From IMG/VR virus record IMGVR_UViG_3300042301_001187, positions 1 to 38,963 of that record: DNA of 38,963 nucleotides; one strand, written 5' to 3'. This DNA is from a virus. Each line of letters starts with the position of its first letter. Position 1 is the stretch's first letter. This document shows positions 9,501 through 35,248 of the stretch, one piece after another. The notes below the pieces were generated by a model, which did no database searches, had not been told where the DNA came from, and worked only from the letters and a program-made list of their open reading frames with translations. Position numbers and translations under genes: made by a program.

Positions 9501-9752
9501 CTACCATTTTACCCTGTTCGCCCAATACGCAGCAGACATCTTGCCACGGGCAATGTTCTTAGCATGACGAGCCTTAAAGGCGTTATTGCGGGCAGACCCA
9601 TCAGGGGAACCCTTCACACCCTGCTGGCCGAACCGAATCAACTTAACCGTACTGCCCTCTTTAGCCAACACGGCATGAGACTTCTTTGCCCCAGGGGTAG
9701 CTTTAGGTTTGTTGTAGCCTGCAAACCGTTCGCCGCGATACTCGATAGTCAT
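9501..9752 (-). CDS. Conserved small basic phage protein (83 aa)
   Basis: The body reads MTIEYRGERFAGYNKPK, then HAVLAKEGSTVKLIRFGQQG and ends FKARHAKNIARGKMSAAYWA. I recognise this as a small basic family found in many phages beside capsid and tail genes; its biochemical role is not known. I chose the ATG at 9752 because it forms an ATGA with the upstream stop; an in-frame ATG eight codons earlier lacks a ribosome site. Confidence 0.65.
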   Translation of the reverse strand: MTIEYRGERFAGYNKPKATPGAKKSHAVLAKEGSTVKLIRFGQQGVKGSPDGSARNNAFKARHAKNIARGKMSAAYWANRVKW

Positions 9753-10027
9753 TGCGGGACACCCTCTATTTGCCATTTATGAGTAGCATGTTTTTCTAAC
9801 AACGAGGAACCCTCAATCTTGCGGGGCTGCAAACCCTGCTTGCGCAAACGTTTGTACGCAGGCATATCTTTGTTCCAGCGCTTTTCGCGCTGGTTAGTTT
9901 CTTCAACAACAGAACCACGGGTGGTGGTGGAGTTCGTGCCGGTATGGACCATTGATATTCGACATCCAAAACAATCTTCTACGTCAAGGTTTGGGTGAGT
10001 TTCCCTATGCTTCAATGTAATCACCAT
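9749..10027 (-). CDS. Small hypothetical phage protein (92 aa)
   Basis: It begins MVITLKHRETHPNLDVEDCF and contains a GCR next to that Cys (DCFGCR), then a long basic helical part (REKRWNKDMPAYKRLRKQGL). DCFGC is a possible half zinc site but there is no second pair. The ATG at 10027 overlaps the upstream gene by 23 bp; a TTG at 10039 is an alternative. It sits in a run of small genes after the capsid gene, so a head-completion or virion role is possible but unproven. Confidence 0.55.
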   Translation of the reverse strand: MVITLKHRETHPNLDVEDCFGCRISMVHTGTNSTTTRGSVVEETNQREKRWNKDMPAYKRLRKQGLQPRKIEGSSLLEKHATHKWQIEGVPQ

Positions 10028-25189: not shown

Positions 25190-25978
25190 TTACTTATTTA
25201 GAGTGTTAAGACCTAGAAGCTCGTATTTACCAACAACGCTGTCGGCCCATATTTGTGACCACTTGTAACAGTTGGTGCAAGTAGCAGCAGGGTGGTCGAC
25301 ACCGCACAGCTTGTTGCCGCGGTTACCTTCAAACCTTCCCCATGTAACCCAAGCCATAGAGTCGGAAGATTGCAAGCACTCTCCAAACTTTACAAATGCA
25401 TCCTTCTTCAACCCAAAGCCATGCATCTTAAGGCCGTAGTCGTGCAAGTCATAGAAGAGTTCTGTTATACCTTTAAACTTTGTTCTACGACAAACAGAAC
25501 CAACCCCTACAGTTGGATGCTCTCGAAGGTCGACCCCGTACTCAGCAAACATCTCAACATGCCTTCGGTATTCATCCGGGTGCCATCCCTGCAGCACGGG
25601 AATAATAGGTAGCTCAGGTCCAAGTTCTTGCAGTGTGCAAAAGTTCTCGCAGGTGAGGCGTTGATGTTTCTCTACATTAAACCCAGTCTTCTCAAGCATA
25701 TGAGGTTCACACATCCAGTCCTGCTGGGAGGCAAAGTCCAAATTACCAACCTTGTCAGTAATCCGCCGCAGCTCCTCGACATACCACTCCGGTGTAGTTT
25801 TCCACTTTCCGTGCATCTTCAGCTCAGTGAACCCACCCGAATCACATGCCCAGTTACGGGTAGCAGGTTTAATCTTCTTTACCATCGATATGGTTCTAAC
25901 TGAGACAAAAAGAGGGTGTCTAGGTTCTTGCTTCCATAGCCAATATGGCCGACCAGTCCCCACATAAAAAATTGTCAT
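25190..25978 (-). CDS. dpdA: DpdA-like DNA 7-deazaguanine transglycosylase (262 aa)
   Basis: A relative of tRNA-guanine transglycosylase of the phage DpdA kind, which swaps guanine in DNA for a 7-deazaguanine such as preQ0 and so blocks restriction enzymes. Key marks are ACDSGGFTEL (Asp46, base site), PVLQGW (about 127-132), VGVGSVCRR (157-165), SSDSMAW with Asp206 as candidate nucleophile, and a zinc-like Cys225/His229/Cys234/Cys237 set. No FolE, QueD, QueE or QueC was recognised in the window, so the modified base would come from the host. There is no Shine-Dalgarno at the ATG; TACTAT lies 13 bases upstream, so the message may be nearly leaderless. Confidence 0.75.
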   Translation of the reverse strand: MTIFYVGTGRPYWLWKQEPRHPLFVSVRTISMVKKIKPATRNWACDSGGFTELKMHGKWKTTPEWYVEELRRITDKVGNLDFASQQDWMCEPHMLEKTGFNVEKHQRLTCENFCTLQELGPELPIIPVLQGWHPDEYRRHVEMFAEYGVDLREHPTVGVGSVCRRTKFKGITELFYDLHDYGLKMHGFGLKKDAFVKFGECLQSSDSMAWVTWGRFEGNRGNKLCGVDHPAATCTNCYKWSQIWADSVVGKYELLGLNTLNK

Positions 25979-26482
25979 TTGATTGTTGATAATAGTACAA
26001 CCATGGTGTACACTGCTGGCAACACAGAAAGACCTTATCGCTGTTAAGCAGAAAAGGCACGCGAGCCCAGACCCTATCGTTCAGGATTGACGCAGGTAGG
26101 ACGGGCATTATGGCCGGTAACGGGGACCGATCCTCCATGTCAAAGAACGCCGCTAGCGAGTGCCAACCGCTTTAAATATGCGATACGTAGAGGGTAAAAA
26201 ACTAACAACAGGTGTCGGCTAGAAATACTGGTCACGGCCACCTTCAACTAAAGATTGTAAAGCGTGGGGGGGACTAAGAACTCATGTCATCACGGAGATG
26301 GAAACGATTAGCTACAAACCCATCACCTACCACTAGCTGCGGCAATAACAATAAAAATTAGTTTTAAAAACCAAACAGAGTGTTAGCTCCCGGTCCCCTA
26401 CAGCTTTCACTTGTTCACAAACTCATCCAACCACTCGCCTCTAGAGCAATTGGCGGCCAACCACCGGAGACATGGGAACATA

Positions 26483-26973: not shown

Positions 26974-27261
26974 CTACTTGGTGGCGTAGAACTCCCTCAG
27001 ATCTTCAAGGAAACTCAGCACCATTTCCGCTATTTTTTCGGTTTCGGTTTTGACGGCTTGCATGCTTGGAAATTCTTCGGCGTCTAGTTGCCAGATTAAG
27101 GAAACGATTTCATTTCTCGCGTCGTTTACTCGCGTGAAGAGTGGCGGAAATTCTTTCATTCCTGCTGGCTCCGCTTTCATGATGTCGGCGGAAATTTGAG
27201 CCAGTAGAGAATTCATCTCTTCTAGTTCTGGCAGGTCGTGACGTAGTGCTACGCGGTTCAT
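26974..27261 (-). CDS. Helical unknown protein, last gene of the MoxR-VWA cassette (95 aa)
   Basis: An acidic, helical protein (LPELEEMNSLLAQISADIMK; EKIAEMVLSFLEDLREFYAT), possibly a coiled coil or helical bundle, with no cysteines or membrane segments. It shares ATGA with the 168-residue gene upstream and is followed by the strong terminator, so it belongs to the same operon. No family is recognised; a binding partner of its neighbour is plausible. Confidence 0.6.
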   Translation of the reverse strand: MNRVALRHDLPELEEMNSLLAQISADIMKAEPAGMKEFPPLFTRVNDARNEIVSLIWQLDAEEFPSMQAVKTETEKIAEMVLSFLEDLREFYATK

Positions 27262-27764
27262 TCTGTTTCTCCTGCTTCTGCGATGTGTTGCGCCATGAAT
27301 ACAGCCAGCGTCATTTTTTCTAGTGCTTCAGCAAGTTTTCCGTGACCCTCTCCGTCTTGTAGTCCTGCTGTGAACCCGACTGCTTCCGCTTGCTCTGGGT
27401 GAACTGGTGAGACGTAGCAGGCGATCTCTTCGCCATTGTGAATGGTGCTCACCACCACATCTAGTGGCTCCGTGTCGGGGTCTGGTTCGTTACCTGTTGC
27501 GTCTGCTTTTGCAACCATTGCTTGGGTCTCAATTATTAGCGCGTCAATGTCGCGCAGTTCTTTTACCTTGTCAAGCATGAGACGCACCGCGAACGTCTGC
27601 AACATTTCGTAGGCGTCGCCATGGTGTGCAACTTCTTTGGTTTCTCCATTTTTTAGAACGGCAAACAAACGGTGAATTTCGCTGTGTTGTTGTCCTGTTA
27701 GTTGGCGTTCCAGTTCGCGGAATTGTGCGAACTGGCTGAGTGTTTGGGTGAGTGTTTCTTTCAT
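27258..27764 (-). CDS. Unknown soluble protein of the MoxR-VWA cassette (168 aa)
   Basis: The sequence starts with helices (SQFAQFRELERQLTGQQHSE), then a short beta motif (RLFAVLKNGETKEVAHHG), a long helix (TFAVRLMLDKVKELRDIDAL), an acidic loop (EPDPDTEPLD) and an alpha/beta end (VGFTAGLQDGEGHGKLAEAL). AGGAG precedes the ATG. It is cotranscribed with the ATPase-VWA pair. I do not recognise the family; as third member of a MoxR-VWA set it might be substrate or adaptor. Confidence 0.6.
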   Translation of the reverse strand: MKETLTQTLSQFAQFRELERQLTGQQHSEIHRLFAVLKNGETKEVAHHGDAYEMLQTFAVRLMLDKVKELRDIDALIIETQAMVAKADATGNEPDPDTEPLDVVVSTIHNGEEIACYVSPVHPEQAEAVGFTAGLQDGEGHGKLAEALEKMTLAVFMAQHIAEAGETE

Positions 27765-27863: not shown

Positions 27864-29297
27864 TTATTCTTCCTCTTCGTTGTTGTCGTCTAAGTAATAC
27901 TCTTTGCATTGTTTTACGTATCCAGAAATTCTCTGGCGTGGTTTTTCTCCTCTCGTTGCTTTGGCAAGTATCGCGACGGCTTCGGCTGGTGTGTCCACCA
28001 TGTGTACGCCATGACGCGTGATAAGTGAAACAAGTTCGGCGGTTTCTTTCTTGCCCATGTTTCCGTTTTTGCTGTATGCGTAACCATCTGTTACCCACAC
28101 AATGGGTTCGCCTGTTCTGGAGCGTTCCGAGATCGCGTAGCGGAGTGCTGACGCGTCCACGCCATTTCCATTTCCGCCCATTGGTGCGAGTGTTGAGCGT
28201 TTGCCGTTCTTTGCGTGTATCCAGACGTTCGCGACGTGACTGCCACAGTCTGAGTAGCCAATGACAGTCGCGCCACCTGCGACGCTGAGAATTGCTTCAA
28301 CGTCTGACGCGCTAAGGCTCATGCTCCCCGATTGGTCTATTAACACGACGCCACCATGTGCGCGGATTTTGCGTGAAAAAATTCGCGTGTGTGGATCGGT
28401 TGCCATTCGCGAAACGTGGCGCGGTGCTTTACCTTTGTTGCTGGCAATTCTGCGCTTTGCCATTTTGCCTAGGTGTGCTGTGTCTAGTTCTGTATCCATT
28501 AGACGTACGTCGTCATAACTTGAACCCTTCCCCGTGTGTTCTGGGTGCTTGGTGAACTTTGACATGGCGGAGCTTCTTTTTCTTTCGCGGTCTGCTTCTG
28601 CTTTGGCGTTTGCTTTTTCTGCTCGCGTTTCTGCTGTTTCTAGTTCTGGCTCGCGTCTGCTGTGTGACTCAATGAGTCGGGCAAGTGAGATAGACGTAGA
28701 GAAACCCGCTGGCATTTCTAGTGGTCGTTTTGTTCCGTCATCTTCCAGATACTCAAACTCCAATGCCGTGAGGTTGGAAATTGAGTAGTGGTAATGGCTG
28801 AGAATTTTTTTCATTTCTCTACGGAATTCTTGTAATGGTTTGCGCCATTCTGTCGGGGCAAATTTTGTGAGCGCGGTTTTCACTTTGCTTTCATGCCCTG
28901 TTTTGTGCGCATACAACGTGATTAGTAACGCGTCGCGCCATGACTTGCTAAGCCCTGCGCGTCGTGCTTTACCCTCTTCGCTGTAATCAATGAACGCTTC
29001 TATACTCACTCCCGATTTTTCCGCGATTACGTTCATTCGCAAACATTCCGCGATCGTTAGCGCGTCGGTGCTTACCTCGAACATTCGCGCGTATTTCACT
29101 AATGGTTCTACGGGTGAAAATGCACCATGACAGTACGCATGAGCCCTGCACGCTTCGGCGGTTTCTCCAAATTCGTCGGGGGCTTTCATCACTTTTTCCA
29201 TTCGTGACGTTTCGCAAATTCCGCGAACGGGGGGCGCGTACAACGTACGCCACCCCCCTTCTTGCGCTGTTGGTAATGCGTTAGGAATTATTTTCAT
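27864..29297 (-). CDS. VWA-domain protein, partner of the MoxR ATPase (477 aa)
   Basis: The C-terminal third is a von Willebrand A domain: the metal site DQSGSMS (Asp321, Ser323, Ser325), a Gly/Asn-rich loop PMGGNGNGVD (about 372-381) and WVTDG with Asp404. The N-terminal part is helical; residues 215-250 are a charged linker. The tail is acidic (DDNNEEEE). Its ATG overlaps the ATPase stop (ATGA), the usual arrangement of MoxR-VWA pairs, which act as metal- and ATP-dependent chaperone-like machines (RavA-ViaA, CobS-CobT, GvpN are known cases). The target here is unknown. Confidence 0.8.
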   Translation of the reverse strand: MKIIPNALPTAQEGGWRTLYAPPVRGICETSRMEKVMKAPDEFGETAEACRAHAYCHGAFSPVEPLVKYARMFEVSTDALTIAECLRMNVIAEKSGVSIEAFIDYSEEGKARRAGLSKSWRDALLITLYAHKTGHESKVKTALTKFAPTEWRKPLQEFRREMKKILSHYHYSISNLTALEFEYLEDDGTKRPLEMPAGFSTSISLARLIESHSRREPELETAETRAEKANAKAEADRERKRSSAMSKFTKHPEHTGKGSSYDDVRLMDTELDTAHLGKMAKRRIASNKGKAPRHVSRMATDPHTRIFSRKIRAHGGVVLIDQSGSMSLSASDVEAILSVAGGATVIGYSDCGSHVANVWIHAKNGKRSTLAPMGGNGNGVDASALRYAISERSRTGEPIVWVTDGYAYSKNGNMGKKETAELVSLITRHGVHMVDTPAEAVAILAKATRGEKPRQRISGYVKQCKEYYLDDNNEEEE

Positions 29298-30043
29298 GAC
29301 ATCACCGCGCGATCGTCTGCGTTTGCTATTTCTGCTGTGGCGAGTTCTGAAATGTTCCAGACGTTCACCAAACTTTCTGCGAGTTCTTCGCCAAAAATTA
29401 AGCGCGTGGCTTCTGCTCTTCCGATGTGTGTCTCTAGTCGTACCAGTTCAAGAAACGCGCGCATACTTGCGCGTTCGTTACCTTCTGCTCCTGCCATTGT
29501 TCGCGCTGTTTCGCGGTAGATCTCTGGCAAGCGTTCTAGTGCCATTGGGTGTGGTTCTGTAATGCATAACGCGATAGGGAAACGATCAACTAGCGCGGTT
29601 GGTAGGTCGCCCATGTTCATTACGTTTGTTGTCATGAATACAGAAAAATTTTCATGTGGCGTGACTATTTCGCCTGTCTCTGGGTTCTGCCATGAACTGC
29701 TTTCTACTGTGTCAGTCATCGCCATTAGCACCGCGAGAACGTCGCCATTTGCTTTGTCTATTTCGTCAATGACCAAACGTCCGCCAGTTCTCCACGCTTT
29801 AATCGCGGAGCCTTCGCGCCACGAGAATTTGCCTGTGCTGTTTGGTTCCCAGTTGCCCACTATGTCGGCGTCTGTCATTTCTTCGCTACAGATCAAACGG
29901 AACGCGTTGATCGGGTTTCCTGCTGTGAGTCCTGCGTAGGTTTTGCCTGTTCCTGCGTTGCCGTAAAGAATGACGCGTTTTGTGTCTGCTTCCATCAGTT
30001 TCGCGAGGTCTTGCCATGCGTTGGGTTTTGCTTGCTTTTTCAT
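29294..30043 (-). CDS. MoxR/CobS-type AAA+ ATPase (249 aa)
   Basis: An AAA+ chaperone-like ATPase. Walker A is GNAGTGKT (28-35), Walker B LVIDEID (90-96), sensor 1 TTN (138-140) and the arginine finger region ALVDRF (Arg154). The length suits a minimal MoxR core with a small helical lid. The ATG at 30043 has GGAG 10 bases upstream; a GTG at 30085 would add 14 residues. It is coupled to the VWA gene. Actinophages and cyanophages carry related ATPases (often annotated CobS or MoxR), with no settled role. Confidence 0.85.
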   Translation of the reverse strand: MKKQAKPNAWQDLAKLMEADTKRVILYGNAGTGKTYAGLTAGNPINAFRLICSEEMTDADIVGNWEPNSTGKFSWREGSAIKAWRTGGRLVIDEIDKANGDVLAVLMAMTDTVESSSWQNPETGEIVTPHENFSVFMTTNVMNMGDLPTALVDRFPIALCITEPHPMALERLPEIYRETARTMAGAEGNERASMRAFLELVRLETHIGRAEATRLIFGEELAESLVNVWNISELATAEIANADDRAVMS

Positions 30044-30490
30044 TTTGCGATATCTCCATATCGGTTTTGGTGGCGTTGTTGCCACGTGTTCAGAATAGCG
30101 GAAATTAGCCAGGTGCGCGCGTTCATTTCAGCCTTATTTTGTAAGGGTTCCAGAATGGTGAAATTTTTTAGGTGGCCGTTCTGGGTGGCCGTTCTGGTGG
30201 CCGTTCTGGGTGGCCGTTCTGGTGGCCGTTCTGCGTCGTCAATTTGCGAGCAGTCGGAACTTTCCGCGTCGCGGTTTTGGTCGTCAATTTCCCCGACCTG
30301 TTGGGTCTCTTTGGGTCGCCTAATTGGGGTCTATTTTCGCGCGTGGTCGGCGTGGTCGGGGTCGCGGTTCCGTTGTCGCGGTCTGGGTCGCGGAGCATCT
30401 GGCGCGTCGCGTGTTTGGTTCGCTTAACCTCGCGCGTTCGCGGTTTTGCTGTCAAGTGTTCGGGCTACCTAACACGCAAAAATGCCGATC
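30044..30490. other. Non-coding stretch upstream of the ATPase
   Basis: No supported gene. A 95-codon minus-strand frame is open (30168-30455) but starts with TTG, has no ribosome site, and its C-terminus just translates the tandem repeat. The region is rich in CG words like the cassette downstream, and probably carries the promoter of the MoxR-VWA operon, which I could not pinpoint. Confidence 0.6.
30171..30233. repeat. Alternating 13/12-bp tandem repeat, five units
   Basis: The unit GGTGGCCGTTCT(G) occurs five times with lengths 13, 12, 13, 12, 13, so the higher-order period is 25 bp. No base change is seen between units. Repeats near replication origins often bind initiators or regulators, but this one may also be a slippage product. 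Confidence 0.9.
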
Positions 30491-30541
30491 TGTGGAAACC
30501 CAAAAGTTATCCACACGTTTTCCACAACCCCCTGTGGATAA
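30491..30541. other. DnaA-box cluster of a candidate replication origin
   Basis: Two perfect DnaA boxes face each other: TTATCCACA at 30507-30515 and its complement TGTGGATAA at 30533-30541. Two near matches flank them: TTTTCCACA at 30518-30526 and TGTGGAAAC at 30491-30499. Four sites in 51 bp are far beyond chance and match the arrangement of bacterial and plasmid origins. They imply use of host DnaA. Confidence 0.8.
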
Positions 30542-30579
30542 CCCGGATTTCGGGGGGCCAAGCCGGTAAAATTTGTTCT

Positions 30580-30633
30580 TTATCGGTAGCGATCGTTTCG
30601 TTATCGGTAGCGCCCAATTCGTTATCGGTAGCG
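30580..30633. repeat. Three iterons of the candidate origin
   Basis: TTATCGGTAGCG is repeated exactly at 30580, 30601 and 30622, a 21-bp spacing that puts all copies on the same face of the helix. They lie 38 bp from the DnaA boxes. Such iterons usually bind an initiator or a repressor; which protein binds here is unknown. Confidence 0.85.
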
Positions 30634-30639
30634 CCAGAC

Positions 30640-30828
30640 TTAATCTGGTTGTCTGCGGATAATGCGAAGCAAAGCATTCTGACAGAGAACTAACGAAACC
30701 ATATCCATGTCCGCAGCTAGGTCTGCGCAAATGTCCATACGCTCTAAAGCTTCTTCATCTGTGCATGTGGTAGCAGCAAGCATTGCTTCTATCAATGCAA
30801 ACTGTTTGTCTGTGTACTGTGCATTCAT
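30640..30828 (-). CDS. Small acidic protein after WhiB (62 aa)
   Basis: A short helical protein (TDKQFALIEAMLAATTCTDE; EERMDICADLAADMDMVSLV in outline) with three Cys and a basic end (LLRIIRRQPD). It overlaps the WhiB stop (ATGA) and ends next to the iterons. No family is recognised. Its place beside the origin makes a regulatory role possible. Confidence 0.6.
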   Translation of the reverse strand: MNAQYTDKQFALIEAMLAATTCTDEEALERMDICADLAADMDMVSLVLCQNALLRIIRRQPD

Positions 30829-31115
30829 CTTACTTTACCTTTCAGGTATGAGTTGCGTTCTGATGGTGTAAAGCCACCCCATACGCCATGTTTTATGTTG
30901 TTGTTTAAAGCAAAGTCTAGACAGCGCCATCGAACGTCGCAAGTCTTGCAAACCTTTTTAGCATCTTTTATTAGTGTTTGCTCTTTAGCGGGATCAGCAA
31001 AATACTTTTCGTTGCCGGTGTCTAGGCACGCAGCTTCTATCTGCCAACTAATATCAGAGTCACTAAGTTTGTGTACAAGTTCTGTCAACTGGTCTTTGTA
31101 CTTTTTTTGTGTCAT
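30825..31115 (-). CDS. WhiB-like transcription regulator (96 aa)
   Basis: WhiB proteins are iron-sulphur transcription factors found only in Actinobacteria and their phages; they bind the housekeeping sigma factor. All four cluster ligands are present (Cys30, Cys56, Cys59, Cys65 in CKTCDVRWRC), followed by the turn GVWGG (77-81) and a basic tail (SERNSYLKGKVR). AAAGGGG precedes the ATG. It probably tunes host or phage promoters; phage WhiB proteins can also block superinfection. Confidence 0.92.
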   Translation of the reverse strand: MTQKKYKDQLTELVHKLSDSDISWQIEAACLDTGNEKYFADPAKEQTLIKDAKKVCKTCDVRWRCLDFALNNNIKHGVWGGFTPSERNSYLKGKVR

Positions 31116-31258
31116 CTGCTTGCCCCTTTCTTTTTAGTTTTCTTTTGTGTTCTCCAATGCTCACGGGACTGGTGGCAAAGACATTCGCACCCTTCTGTTT
31201 GGATTCTTGTCCATGACGTTAGCGCGGCCTTAACGGTTCCGCAATGTTCACAGCCCAA
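31112..31258 (-). CDS. Small zinc-knuckle protein (48 aa, TTG start)
   Basis: Read from a TTG at 31258, this frame encodes a zinc-ribbon-like pattern: CEHC near the N-terminus and CECLC later, then a Lys-rich tail. Its stop overlaps the WhiB ATG (ATGA), which supports it, as does the tight packing of the region; an in-frame TAA lies just before the TTG. The ribosome site is weak. Confidence 0.5.
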   Translation of the reverse strand: MGCEHCGTVKAALTSWTRIQTEGCECLCHQSREHWRTQKKTKKKGASR

Positions 31259-31272
31259 TTAAAAAACAAATC

Positions 31273-31497
31273 TCACAAGGGTTTGCGCCAATTAGAAGGT
31301 GAGTGGTAATCCTCTACTGCTTCTCGCTGGTCTTCAGATTCGTACATACGGATGATATGTATGCATGGATCTTCTCCGCCAAAGAACGACTCTTCTTCTT
31401 CGCCTTCAGACATTGGCAAACCATCGTGCGTATAGCAAACGGGTGGTCCACACCACCCGTTGTCTATACCAATTTGAATCCACTCATCTGCTTCCAT
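31273..31497 (-). CDS. Conserved small actinophage protein (74 aa)
   Basis: The sequence IGIDNGWCGPPVCYTHDGLP with a following acidic run (SEGEEEE) and DPCIHIIRMY is, in my memory, recurrent in actinophages, with no known function. Three conserved-looking Cys and two His could bind a metal. It overlaps the SSB stop by one base (TGATG). Confidence 0.65.
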   Translation of the reverse strand: MEADEWIQIGIDNGWCGPPVCYTHDGLPMSEGEEEESFFGGEDPCIHIIRMYESEDQREAVEDYHSPSNWRKPL

Positions 31498-31892
31498 CAG
31501 AATGGGTCCTCGGGTGATGGGAATGCGCTAGTAAGCATTCCTACAGCGTTCTCAAACTTGCTCTTGTCTTCCGAGAAAGCTGGTGCCCAACGCAATGAAA
31601 TGCCAACCTCGTCGGCAATGATCTTGTTTGCTTTGCGCTTCTCGCCGGTCTTGGTTTCGTAGTCCTCGACATCAATGCGACCACAGATAATTACTGTTGA
31701 GCCTTTTTGAATTGACGCTGAGCAATGCTCTGCAAGCGGACCGAACACAACAACGTTGTGCCATGTGGTTTTCTTTTTCTCATCTTTGCCGGAGGTAGTA
31801 CCAACACCAAAGGTGCATAACGGCATACCGCCTTGTGTGTATCGCAGTTCGGGTTGTTGTCCTACTTTTCCTGCAATCGTTACGTTATTCAT
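31497..31892 (-). CDS. ssb: Single-stranded DNA-binding protein (131 aa)
   Basis: An OB-fold SSB: MNNVTIAGKVGQQPELRYTQ, then LCTFGVGTTS, TTWHNVVVFGPLAEHC and GSTVIICGRIDVEDYETKTG are the standard blocks, and the end PSPEDPF resembles the acidic SSB tip that recruits partner proteins. It protects single strands during replication and recombination, working with the exonuclease and annealing protein of this phage. GGGGAAG precedes the ATG. Confidence 0.92.
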   Translation of the reverse strand: MNNVTIAGKVGQQPELRYTQGGMPLCTFGVGTTSGKDEKKKTTWHNVVVFGPLAEHCSASIQKGSTVIICGRIDVEDYETKTGEKRKANKIIADEVGISLRWAPAFSEDKSKFENAVGMLTSAFPSPEDPF

Positions 31893-32541: not shown

Positions 32542-32730
32542 AATTAATGCTGATCCAGGCGCATCGGTATTGCGTTTCGTGCCTATTGACAAATTGTGGT
32601 TAGTTATGTATTCACCGCATTGGTGATCGAACTGGACAACTTCCCATTTAGGGTATCGCCTGCATTCTCCAAGCGGTTTTATCTGTGGTTGGAAATAAAA
32701 ACAAAATTTGCATATGTCTAAAGCGTTCAT
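32518..32730 (-). CDS. Four-cysteine zinc-binding small protein (70 aa)
   Basis: CKFC (7-10), then GECRRYP and HQCGEY give a C-x2-C...C...C set as in small phage zinc-binding proteins of unknown role. The ATG at 32730 overlaps the resolvase stop (TAATG). It could bind nucleic acid or protein in the recombination module. Confidence 0.65.
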   Translation of the reverse strand: MNALDICKFCFYFQPQIKPLGECRRYPKWEVVQFDHQCGEYITNHNLSIGTKRNTDAPGSALIDMMLESD

Positions 32731-33065
32731 TAGTAACCGGCCTCCTTCAGTAGTTTGACTAAAGACGATACTGGCATGATTGCATACCATTCACCGACCT
32801 TTAGCGTGCCGCGCTTTTTAGCAACGACAGCGCCAGCTTCTGCTTTTGCATTTACTACTTCTTCTTCTAGTTCTTTAAGCCATGCGGGGATGGTTATCTT
32901 TGCGTGGTCTTTTACTTCAAAAACAATTGGGCCACAGCCGGTTATGTCGCCTTTGTCTAGGTTGCCATGCAAGGCACGACGTTCCGCATATGGGAAGCCG
33001 TGCTCTTGCAGGTACCTAACTACAGCAGTTTCGGCTGCCGTGCCCTTTTGTTTAGACTTTGACAT
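32730..33065 (-). CDS. Holliday-junction resolvase-like nuclease (111 aa)
   Basis: A small PD-(D/E)xK-type nuclease: KGTAAETAVVRYLQEHGFPY with Glu12, then GNLDKGDITG (Asp40), FEVKDH (Glu50, Lys52) and a helix (IPAWLKELEEEVVNAKAEAG). This matches the Hjc-like resolvases frequent in actinophages, which cut branched DNA before packaging. The ATG at 33065 overlaps the upstream gene by 14 bp; earlier TTG starts were rejected. Confidence 0.75.
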   Translation of the reverse strand: MSKSKQKGTAAETAVVRYLQEHGFPYAERRALHGNLDKGDITGCGPIVFEVKDHAKITIPAWLKELEEEVVNAKAEAGAVVAKKRGTLKVGEWYAIMPVSSLVKLLKEAGY

Positions 33066-33348
33066 CTTCTTGATTCTGGTATTCAGCTTCGGCGTATTCA
33101 ACCTTGCCTAGTTCGCGGGCTAAAACTTCTGCAGTTCTGTGCCAACGGTCGGCATCGTTGCTAAAAGCAAGCAATTTTTCGCATTTTTCGTTAGTCAGTT
33201 TTTTGCATTCTTCGTACCAATGGTCAGCTCGTGTTTCAGCATCTTCAAGCTGCCTAATCATTGCTTTCCAATCGTCGCGATAAAAGTCAACTATCGCTTG
33301 CAATTTGATTACTTGCATTTCTAGGTTTTCTTTTTTGTGGTCATGCAT
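33052..33348 (-). CDS. Coiled-coil protein of the recombination module (98 aa)
   Basis: A highly charged helical protein (LEMQVIKLQAIVDFYRDDWK; QLEDAETRADHWYEECKKLT) expected to form a long coiled coil, ending in an acidic strand (AEYQNQEDVKV). The ATG at 33348 overlaps the upstream gene by 8 bp with AAGGAG upstream. Function unknown. Confidence 0.6.
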   Translation of the reverse strand: MHDHKKENLEMQVIKLQAIVDFYRDDWKAMIRQLEDAETRADHWYEECKKLTNEKCEKLLAFSNDADRWHRTAEVLARELGKVEYAEAEYQNQEDVKV

Positions 33349-33686: not shown

Positions 33687-34325
33687 TCATGGCTTGTCAC
33701 CGCGCATTACTTTGTAGGTAGCACGCAAGAGTGGCTTGTCGCGATTGAACAACTCTTCGTGCCACAAACCGGCAGATGCGCATACCTGCAAGCGAGTCAA
33801 GCCGATCTTCTCGCAAGCCTCGTCAAATGTCTTGAGGAAATCTGCGCTAATTAGTTCGTCAGGGTTCTCCTCTACGGCTACTGGTTCTTCTTTCTTTGGT
33901 GCAACCTGCTTGTTAGATGCAGATCCAAGGGACTTTTTTGGTACTTCACCAAGGTCTTCCCATTCCTGTTTGGTCCACAATGACAAAGAAATTCCAAAAC
34001 GCATCGCGGCGTTTCTGAGGAAGTCCCCTACAAGTTCCTTGTCTAATTCTTTTTTGTCTGCGGGAACGCTGCCCACACCAAGACGCGCTTGACCAAGAAT
34101 AGTTAGCTCGCCCCACATAGTTGCCATGCCGTTCTCAACGTGGATTGCTGGGCGACCGTCTTTCCATTCGATGGGAACCCAACGCCATGTCGGATCAATC
34201 TCCAAAAGAATGCGCGTGATGTCGGCGTGACCAACAAAGTCAAGCTGCGTGCCACCCTTAGGTAGCTTGCCAACAATCTTTGGATCGGGTACTGCGTACT
34301 TACTGAGGATTTCTGATAGTTCCAT
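33687..34325 (-). CDS. Erf/Sak-like single-strand annealing protein (212 aa)
   Basis: Residues 1-115 (QLDFVGHADITRILLEIDPT; MWGELTILGQARLGVGSVPA; KELVGDFLRNAAMRFGISLS) resemble the phage annealing proteins of the Erf/Rad52-like group. A linker (PKKSLGSASNKQVAPKKEEP) and a short C-terminal domain follow. It overlaps the exonuclease stop by one base, giving an exonuclease-annealing pair like Red alpha/beta, used for recombination-dependent replication and end repair. Confidence 0.65.
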   Translation of the reverse strand: MELSEILSKYAVPDPKIVGKLPKGGTQLDFVGHADITRILLEIDPTWRWVPIEWKDGRPAIHVENGMATMWGELTILGQARLGVGSVPADKKELDKELVGDFLRNAAMRFGISLSLWTKQEWEDLGEVPKKSLGSASNKQVAPKKEEPVAVEENPDELISADFLKTFDEACEKIGLTRLQVCASAGLWHEELFNRDKPLLRATYKVMRGDKP

Positions 34326-35248
34326 TACTTCGCTCCTTTAATGTTGAATGTTCTAATTGTCATTTGCTTTGTGTATTGAGATGTAAGTTCAGGGTTGTCA
34401 GCCTTGAACGCCTTGCTGTCGAATGATGACCTTACCTGCGGTTTCCACGTTGCGACAACATTTCCGTCAATTGTCGCTGACTCAGAGTTGCCCATCAGTT
34501 CACAGAACTCTGCTTTGAGCATGTCTTCCATTTGCTCGTAGCTTTTGAGTTCTGATTTAACGTGGCGCAATTGGTCAAGCACTTCCTTGCCCCACGGCCC
34601 TACTTCTACGGATGAACCGTCAGCAGCGTTATAACGGCTAGTGATCGTTGCGTATGACCAACGGACACCGGTTGGTGTTGCATCGTAGTCGATTGCTTCA
34701 AACCACATACGCACAGCAGCTTTATGCTCTGCCATTTCGTCAGAAGAAACTGTCTGTTCGTAGATGTGTAATGAAAGTGTTGAATCAAACACACCCCAAA
34801 TAACTTTGTTCTTGCCTGCACAGATTGCTTGCTGAACACCTTGAACTGCCCAGTGAGCAGGAAGAGTTCCTGTCCATTGTTTGTTGTAGGTTTTGATTTC
34901 GACAATATCGCCGTCTTCCGTCATGCCGTCAAGCGTCGCGCTCATGCGACCATCGCGATACATAACGTCAGGCGTTGTAATCTTCTTGCCGATACGGTCA
35001 CTAACCCATTCGAGCAATGGTGCTTCAAGGCGATTGCCACGCTCCATTGCTTCGCTAGGTGCTTTTGGTTCAGGCGCTTGCTTGCTCAGCTGTTCTGCAG
35101 CGTATTGCTCGCGTGACTTGAACGGATGCAAGTCGTAAATAGCTGCAGCATCTGATGCCGATACAAGAAGATTGCCCTCTTCATCTTTCCATCTTGCAAG
35201 CAGCCACTCTTTTGAACCGTGCTCTGGCTTTGGAATTGTTGTACCCAT
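34325..35248 (-). CDS. YqaJ-type 5'-3' exonuclease (307 aa)
   Basis: A lambda-exonuclease-like PD-(D/E)xK enzyme: SASDAAAIYDLHPFKS, RGNRLEAPLLEWV (Glu76), SATLDGMTEDGDIVEIKTYN (Asp107, Glu117, Lys119). These are the catalytic residues of the YqaJ family. The following WAVQGVQQAICAGKNKVIWG is the family's helix near the active site. It resects DNA ends for the annealing protein, to which it is coupled. GAAGGGAA precedes the ATG. Confidence 0.88.
   Translation of the reverse strand: MGTTIPKPEHGSKEWLLARWKDEEGNLLVSASDAAAIYDLHPFKSREQYAAEQLSKQAPEPKAPSEAMERGNRLEAPLLEWVSDRIGKKITTPDVMYRDGRMSATLDGMTEDGDIVEIKTYNKQWTGTLPAHWAVQGVQQAICAGKNKVIWGVFDSTLSLHIYEQTVSSDEMAEHKAAVRMWFEAIDYDATPTGVRWSYATITSRYNAADGSSVEVGPWGKEVLDQLRHVKSELKSYEQMEDMLKAEFCELMGNSESATIDGNVVATWKPQVRSSFDSKAFKADNPELTSQYTKQMTIRTFNIKGAK

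Follow-up and report, generated by a model that had tools for sequence, protein, structure and literature searches.

A cluster of DnaA boxes beside iteron-type repeats in a near-complete phage genome: a possible host-DnaA-dependent replication site

The phage genome was taken from an IMG/VR virus record of 38,963 bases, and this whole stretch is referred to as the window. Given an overlap of 352 bp (97%) between its two ends, the genome of ~38.6 kb is close to complete and redundant-ended or circular. As the ORF map indicates, the minus strand carries nearly all genes. Terminase, portal and major head protein are encoded, as well as a WhiB protein (PF02467 match), which points to an actinobacterial host. 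Furthermore, the minus strand encodes an SSB (31497..31892; PF00436, E=3.1e-26), a RusA-like Holliday junction resolvase (32730..33101; phrog_244, E=6.7e-29), a single-strand annealing protein (33687..34325; phrog_3290, E=1.3e-50) and a RecE/YqaJ-like exonuclease (34325..35248; PF09588, E=3.7e-10; phrog_434, E=2.4e-57), so that these Pfam and PHROGs matches confirm all four proteins named in an initial sequence-only reading of the DNA. An integrase or partition gene was not recognized in the phage. A DpdA-like gene at 25190-25978 (PF23859, E=3.9e-61) suggests 7-deazaguanine DNA modification; among the relatives examined, G015 alone carries a homologue. A 91-aa protein (9501-9776) recurs with ~40-70% identity in marine podovirus contigs (L167, L164 and others), which are otherwise largely unrelated and in which the neighboring genes are far less conserved.

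The element analyzed here (30491-30633) lies entirely within a 554-bp gene-free gap (30086..30639 in the ORF map and gap list). Only one gene-free stretch of the genome is larger than this gap, which separates the MoxR-type AAA gene from an ORF of 62 aa. Four DnaA boxes were located in 51 bp (30491-30541). Two perfect boxes, TTATCCACA, face each other at 30507-30515 on the plus strand and 30533-30541 on the minus strand. Between them TTTTCCACA (30518-30526, plus strand) differs from TTATCCACA by one mismatch and starts 11 bp after the first perfect box, resulting in a tandem pair of the oriC type, and a weak box, GTTTCCACA, with two mismatches occupies 30491-30499 on the minus strand. Under the published consensus TTWTNCACA (PMC5835720), three of these four sites, including TTTTCCACA, qualify as consensus boxes. 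One more site with a single mismatch, TTATCCGCA (30654-30662, minus strand), falls within the neighboring ORF and may be due to chance. The number of perfect boxes in the whole window is ordinary (2 found, 1.7 expected). Of 2000 dinucleotide shuffles of the whole window, none placed two perfect boxes inside 40 bp, and none placed three, let alone four, TTNTCCACA inside 60 bp; two perfect boxes were not obtained in any of 20000 shuffles of the gap alone. Evidently, the clustering of consensus DnaA boxes in this non-coding DNA exceeds chance; coordinates and shuffles thus bear out the two perfect opposed boxes and two near matches in 51 bp that had been noticed from the letters.

Next to the boxes the exact 12-mer TTATCGGTAGCG occurs three times on the plus strand in 21-bp steps (30580..30591, 30601..30612 and 30622..30633), in agreement with the iterons described beforehand, and nowhere else in the window. 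With at least three regularly spaced direct repeats the element is of the iteron type, and a regularly spaced triple, even of 8-mers, was not observed in 3000 shuffles of the gap. The possibility that the iterons represent seven-codon peptide repeats was rejected, because the 12-bp core is invariant at synonymous sites while the spacers vary. Single iteron copies in G003, G016 and G019 lie in one conserved reading frame and were taken as chance. The array was found nowhere else, including an IMG/VR search with the iteron pair, and the iterons do not occur in 121 genomes of the freshwater actinobacterial order discussed below. Comparison of the gap DNA with phages and plasmids gave weak, composition-like matches only.

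The gap has a GC content of 55%, and a stability scan detected no low-stability stretch, as would be expected of an AT-rich unwinding element, adjoining the boxes; the least stable 50 bp of the gap (97.6th percentile) start at 30121, ~370 bp from the boxes. Single-strand folding of the element was not striking (z -1.7). A GC-skew switch around 30.5 kb, for which the sequence-only reading had suggested to look, was not observed: the minimum lies at 38.4 kb and the maximum at 16.1 kb. GC skew is, however, uninformative as an origin marker here, since it is confounded by the location of nearly all genes on one strand. The stretch 30086-30480 is strongly strand-asymmetric (G132 C93 A46 T124), and five tandem copies of GGTGGCCGTTCT in 12- or 13-bp steps are found upstream of the AAA gene (30171..30232).

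Directly downstream of the element, the minus strand encodes the MoxR-type AAA+ ATPase (AAA_5; 29294..30085; PF07728, E=2.9e-16), followed by a partner protein (27864..29297, minus strand), which is vWA-like by eye and matches phrog_33218, a family of unknown function. Homologues of both proteins were detected neither in IMG/VR contigs by a peptide scan nor in the relatives examined. For an unannotated 168-aa protein (27258-27764), a conceivable cryptic initiator, the AlphaFold mean pLDDT of 46 was too low to use. As the element lies upstream of the AAA gene, within the gap of 554 bp, DnaA could act as a transcription regulator, the boxes and repeats being operators of the leftward AAA/vWA-like operon timed by the DnaA-ATP level of the host. 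Bacterial promoters regulated by DnaA have been described (PMC5835720), and the element and the AAA/vWA-like cassette are missing together from the relatives. However, no sigma-70-like promoter was found by a scan of 29900-31200, the AAA start codon is ~400-460 bp away from the boxes, and the oriC-type tandem pair together with opposed boxes exceeds the needs of a promoter. We therefore regard such a regulatory role as unlikely.

The tandem pair TTATCCACA-NN-TTTTCCACA in its 11-bp register is a signature of oriC. Scanning bacterial genomes for TTATCCACANNTTTTCCACA gave at least 120 matching stretches, and about a third of the 80 matches listed were near a dnaA-like gene. In the freshwater actinobacterium L267 the pair is located between dnaA and dnaN, and the phage sequence GTTATCCACACGTTTTCCACA differs from its counterpart GTTATCCACACCTTTTCCACA in the spacer alone. 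The relaxed pair TTWTCCACANNTTWTCCACA was found in 10 of 121 genomes of the same order, which comprises small-genome freshwater actinobacteria; in all ten it adjoins the 3' end of dnaA in the dnaA-dnaN gap, and the reversed control of TTWTCCACANNTTWTCCACA gave no match in the same 121 genomes. Genome sizes of 1.0-2.2 Mb and the freshwater origin suggest that this order is 'Ca. Nanopelagicales', for which cultured hosts and phages exist (PMC10202952). The tandem pair matches the oriC of one freshwater actinobacterial order, to which the phage host, deduced from WhiB, may belong.

In six-frame searches with working controls neither DNA polymerase A (PF00476) nor DnaB_C (PF03796) was detected in the window; for DnaB_C both positive controls, G030 and Immanuel3, scored. 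Pfam and PHROGs likewise revealed no primase, helicase, polymerase or Rep among the proteins scanned, a set leaving out some short ORFs. These searches agree with the previous impression by eye that polymerase, primase and helicase are missing. In the relative G006 a sliding-clamp-like protein is encoded (L102 5124-5738; phrog_947, E=9.1e-7), which would fit a recruitment or redirection of the polymerase of the host.

For the major head protein, 503 relatives were found in IMG/VR, of which 23 with lengths up to 42 kb were fetched (eight of at least 35 kb). Where covered, terminase, SSB, resolvase, annealing protein and exonuclease are syntenic in these 23 relatives, which have no counterpart of the AAA gene, the vWA-like gene or the origin stretch; a cluster of at least three boxes or an iteron array occurred in none of them. 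A second set of 76 further loci, found via the exonuclease, in 38 of which the relevant side is covered by 6 kb or more, contained no box cluster, no iterons, no AAA/vWA-like genes and neither the helicase nor the primase of phage F5. Eight of the exonuclease loci have pairs of TTCTCCACA within the exonuclease gene itself; these were left out of the DnaA-box counts. A DnaB-type helicase and an F5-type primase were likewise not detected in the near-complete relatives tested. The sequence-only reading had named related genomes without the sites at the syntenic position as a refutation, and both sets lack them; a clade-wide origin of this phage group is not borne out by the sequences compared, and the generalization fails. 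Among the relatives examined, boxes, iterons and MoxR/vWA cassette appear in this genome only. From the 23 relatives and 76 loci surveyed, the clade seems to be generally devoid of helicase and primase, and the element seems to have been added in a single member. The lack of replisome genes does not entail the element, because relatives without such genes are also without the cluster.

Boxes were observed in other phages. In the control region adjoining terminase, G014 shows a single pair, TTATCCACA/ATATCCACA, the two boxes being 15 bp apart, and the distant relatives G030/G031 carry several DnaA boxes just upstream of terminase. Since G030 additionally encodes helicase and primase, box clusters and replisome genes are not mutually exclusive. 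In L198 and L230, from other WhiB-bearing phages, a similar tandem pair faces opposed boxes. The terminase, capsid and tail proteins identify the Planktophila phages E7/F5 (OX376640/OX376641) and the Streptomyces Beephvirinae as distant relatives. Unlike the phage analyzed here, F5 codes for a DnaB-like helicase as well as a primase and is free of DnaA-box clusters, and Immanuel3 is annotated with primase and DnaB.

Independent of the element, a non-coding stretch of ~250-300 nt beside terminase (25990-26290, plus strand) is conserved in 15 genomes (e.g. L088 17110-17385, L091 3345-3585, L102 2540-2815 and L099 11215-11495). In 16 of 34 predicted pairs both sides are changed with pairing kept, and GGTGTCGGCTA...CGGCNACC...GTGGGGG is invariant. 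The stretch, which has no Rfam match, is a candidate for a new structured RNA. A covariance model of its 3' part matched seven further loci and gave no match in phage F5 or Immanuel3.

The restriction of the cluster to this genome among the relatives examined, together with the lack of an initiator gene, might be explained by a relic, e.g. oriC or plasmid-origin DNA that was acquired with the cassette and has no present function. Recent or maintained selection is nevertheless implied by the two perfect boxes and by the exactness of the three 12-mers, whose spacers have diverged, and we consider a functionless remnant improbable.

As a generalization, the assumption that a high density of DnaA boxes is exceptional for lytic phages proved to be wrong. 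At least 120 stretches of viral contigs contain the exact pair, and among the matches listed at least 43 viral stretches reach five or more TTNTCCACA within 150 bp; such density is not uncommon among viral contigs. Contigs from one family of marine podoviruses exhibit 7-12 boxes in less than 200 bp, intergenic and near terminase (L167 185-366, L150 285-415, L171 4893-5020 and L231 1283-1433), L167 being the richest contig among the matches listed with 12 boxes in ~190 bp. These podovirus clusters may serve as origin, as DnaA sink or in promoter control. L171 and L231 also encode a primase-helicase, and because members of this family do so, boxes may serve purposes other than an origin in some phages. 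One such purpose would be a DnaA sink or a nucleotide-exchange site, similar to datA or DARS, by which phage DNA titrates or reactivates DnaA and alters host replication. Up to 12 boxes in podoviruses with primase-helicase in their family would fit such a function, and in E. coli datA, DARS1 and DARS2 likewise consist of few boxes in small clusters, the ColE1 DARS having three boxes in 70 bp (PMC5835720). With three or four boxes per genome, however, titration would become relevant late only, and the regular iterons are left unexplained. Moreover, datA and DARS have been described in E. coli but, to our knowledge, not in actinobacteria, which also counts against a sink or exchange site, and we consider it improbable.

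We favor the interpretation of the element as a host-DnaA-dependent origin or an origin auxiliary site, an unproven assignment for which we see the chances as about evenly balanced. The stretch 30491-30633 would be a cis-acting replication site recruiting the host initiator DnaA. DnaA would bind the opposed box cluster, as its sequence suggests, and a second protein of phage or host may bind the three in-phase 21-bp repeats, a step that we infer because their spacing corresponds to two helical turns. In analogy to DnaA-assisted iteron plasmids, both proteins could then open nearby DNA, where DnaB helicase, primase and polymerase III of the host would be loaded, after which phage SSB, exonuclease, annealing protein and resolvase would support recombination-dependent copying. 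The element was probably gained in this lineage with, or beside, the MoxR/vWA cassette and would not be the ancestral replication solution of the clade.

A DnaA-dependent origin, as it was proposed in the sequence-only reading, is supported by the box clustering beyond chance, the gene-free location, the oriC-type pair, WhiB and the lack of polymerase A and DnaB in a near-complete genome, as well as by the boxes in G030/G031, G014, L198 and L230. Against it stand the absence of the sites from near-complete relatives and 38 well-covered loci, which are likewise without helicase and primase, and the lack of a skew extreme at 30.5 kb, of an adjoining AT-rich stretch and of a Rep-like gene; furthermore, the iteron array does not occur elsewhere, and phages with their own primase-helicase carry dense boxes. 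A more far-reaching proposal, in which a small lytic phage without helicase, primase, polymerase and Rep copies from an acquired mimic of the host oriC with DnaA as initiator, while its sisters are recombination-based and site-free, is possible but doubtful. Many freshwater actinophages of the clade encode no recognizable helicase, primase or polymerase, and for one lineage this genome may offer a concrete and testable answer to the question how replication starts, namely a DnaA-binding-type cluster matching actinobacterial oriC. That sister phages lack it would mean that a rapid turnover of the origin type is possible while the recombination genes are retained.

Among known systems, the iteron plasmid origins of pSC101, P1 (oriR) and RK2 (oriV) resemble the element in that DnaA boxes adjoin short direct repeats, of which pSC101 has three and RK2 and P1 have five (PMC4980987). 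The periodicity of about two turns is a further likeness, whereas the phage has no Rep initiator gene, an exact repeat core of 12 bp only, no obvious AT-rich unwinding element and no recognized integrase or partition gene. Phage lambda encodes the O initiator and the P loader, and no O/P-like gene was found in the phage studied here. Lambda ori, with DnaA sites near pO, is nevertheless comparable in that DnaA of the host binds to the origin region of a phage (PMC3985674), the DnaA sites of the present phage being predicted from its sequence. Compared with the actinobacterial chromosomal oriC, the element has few boxes in opposed orientation instead of a long array, lacks dnaA and dnaN as neighbors and adds three iterons; common to both is the TTATCCACA/TTTTCCACA tandem pair in the 11-bp register.
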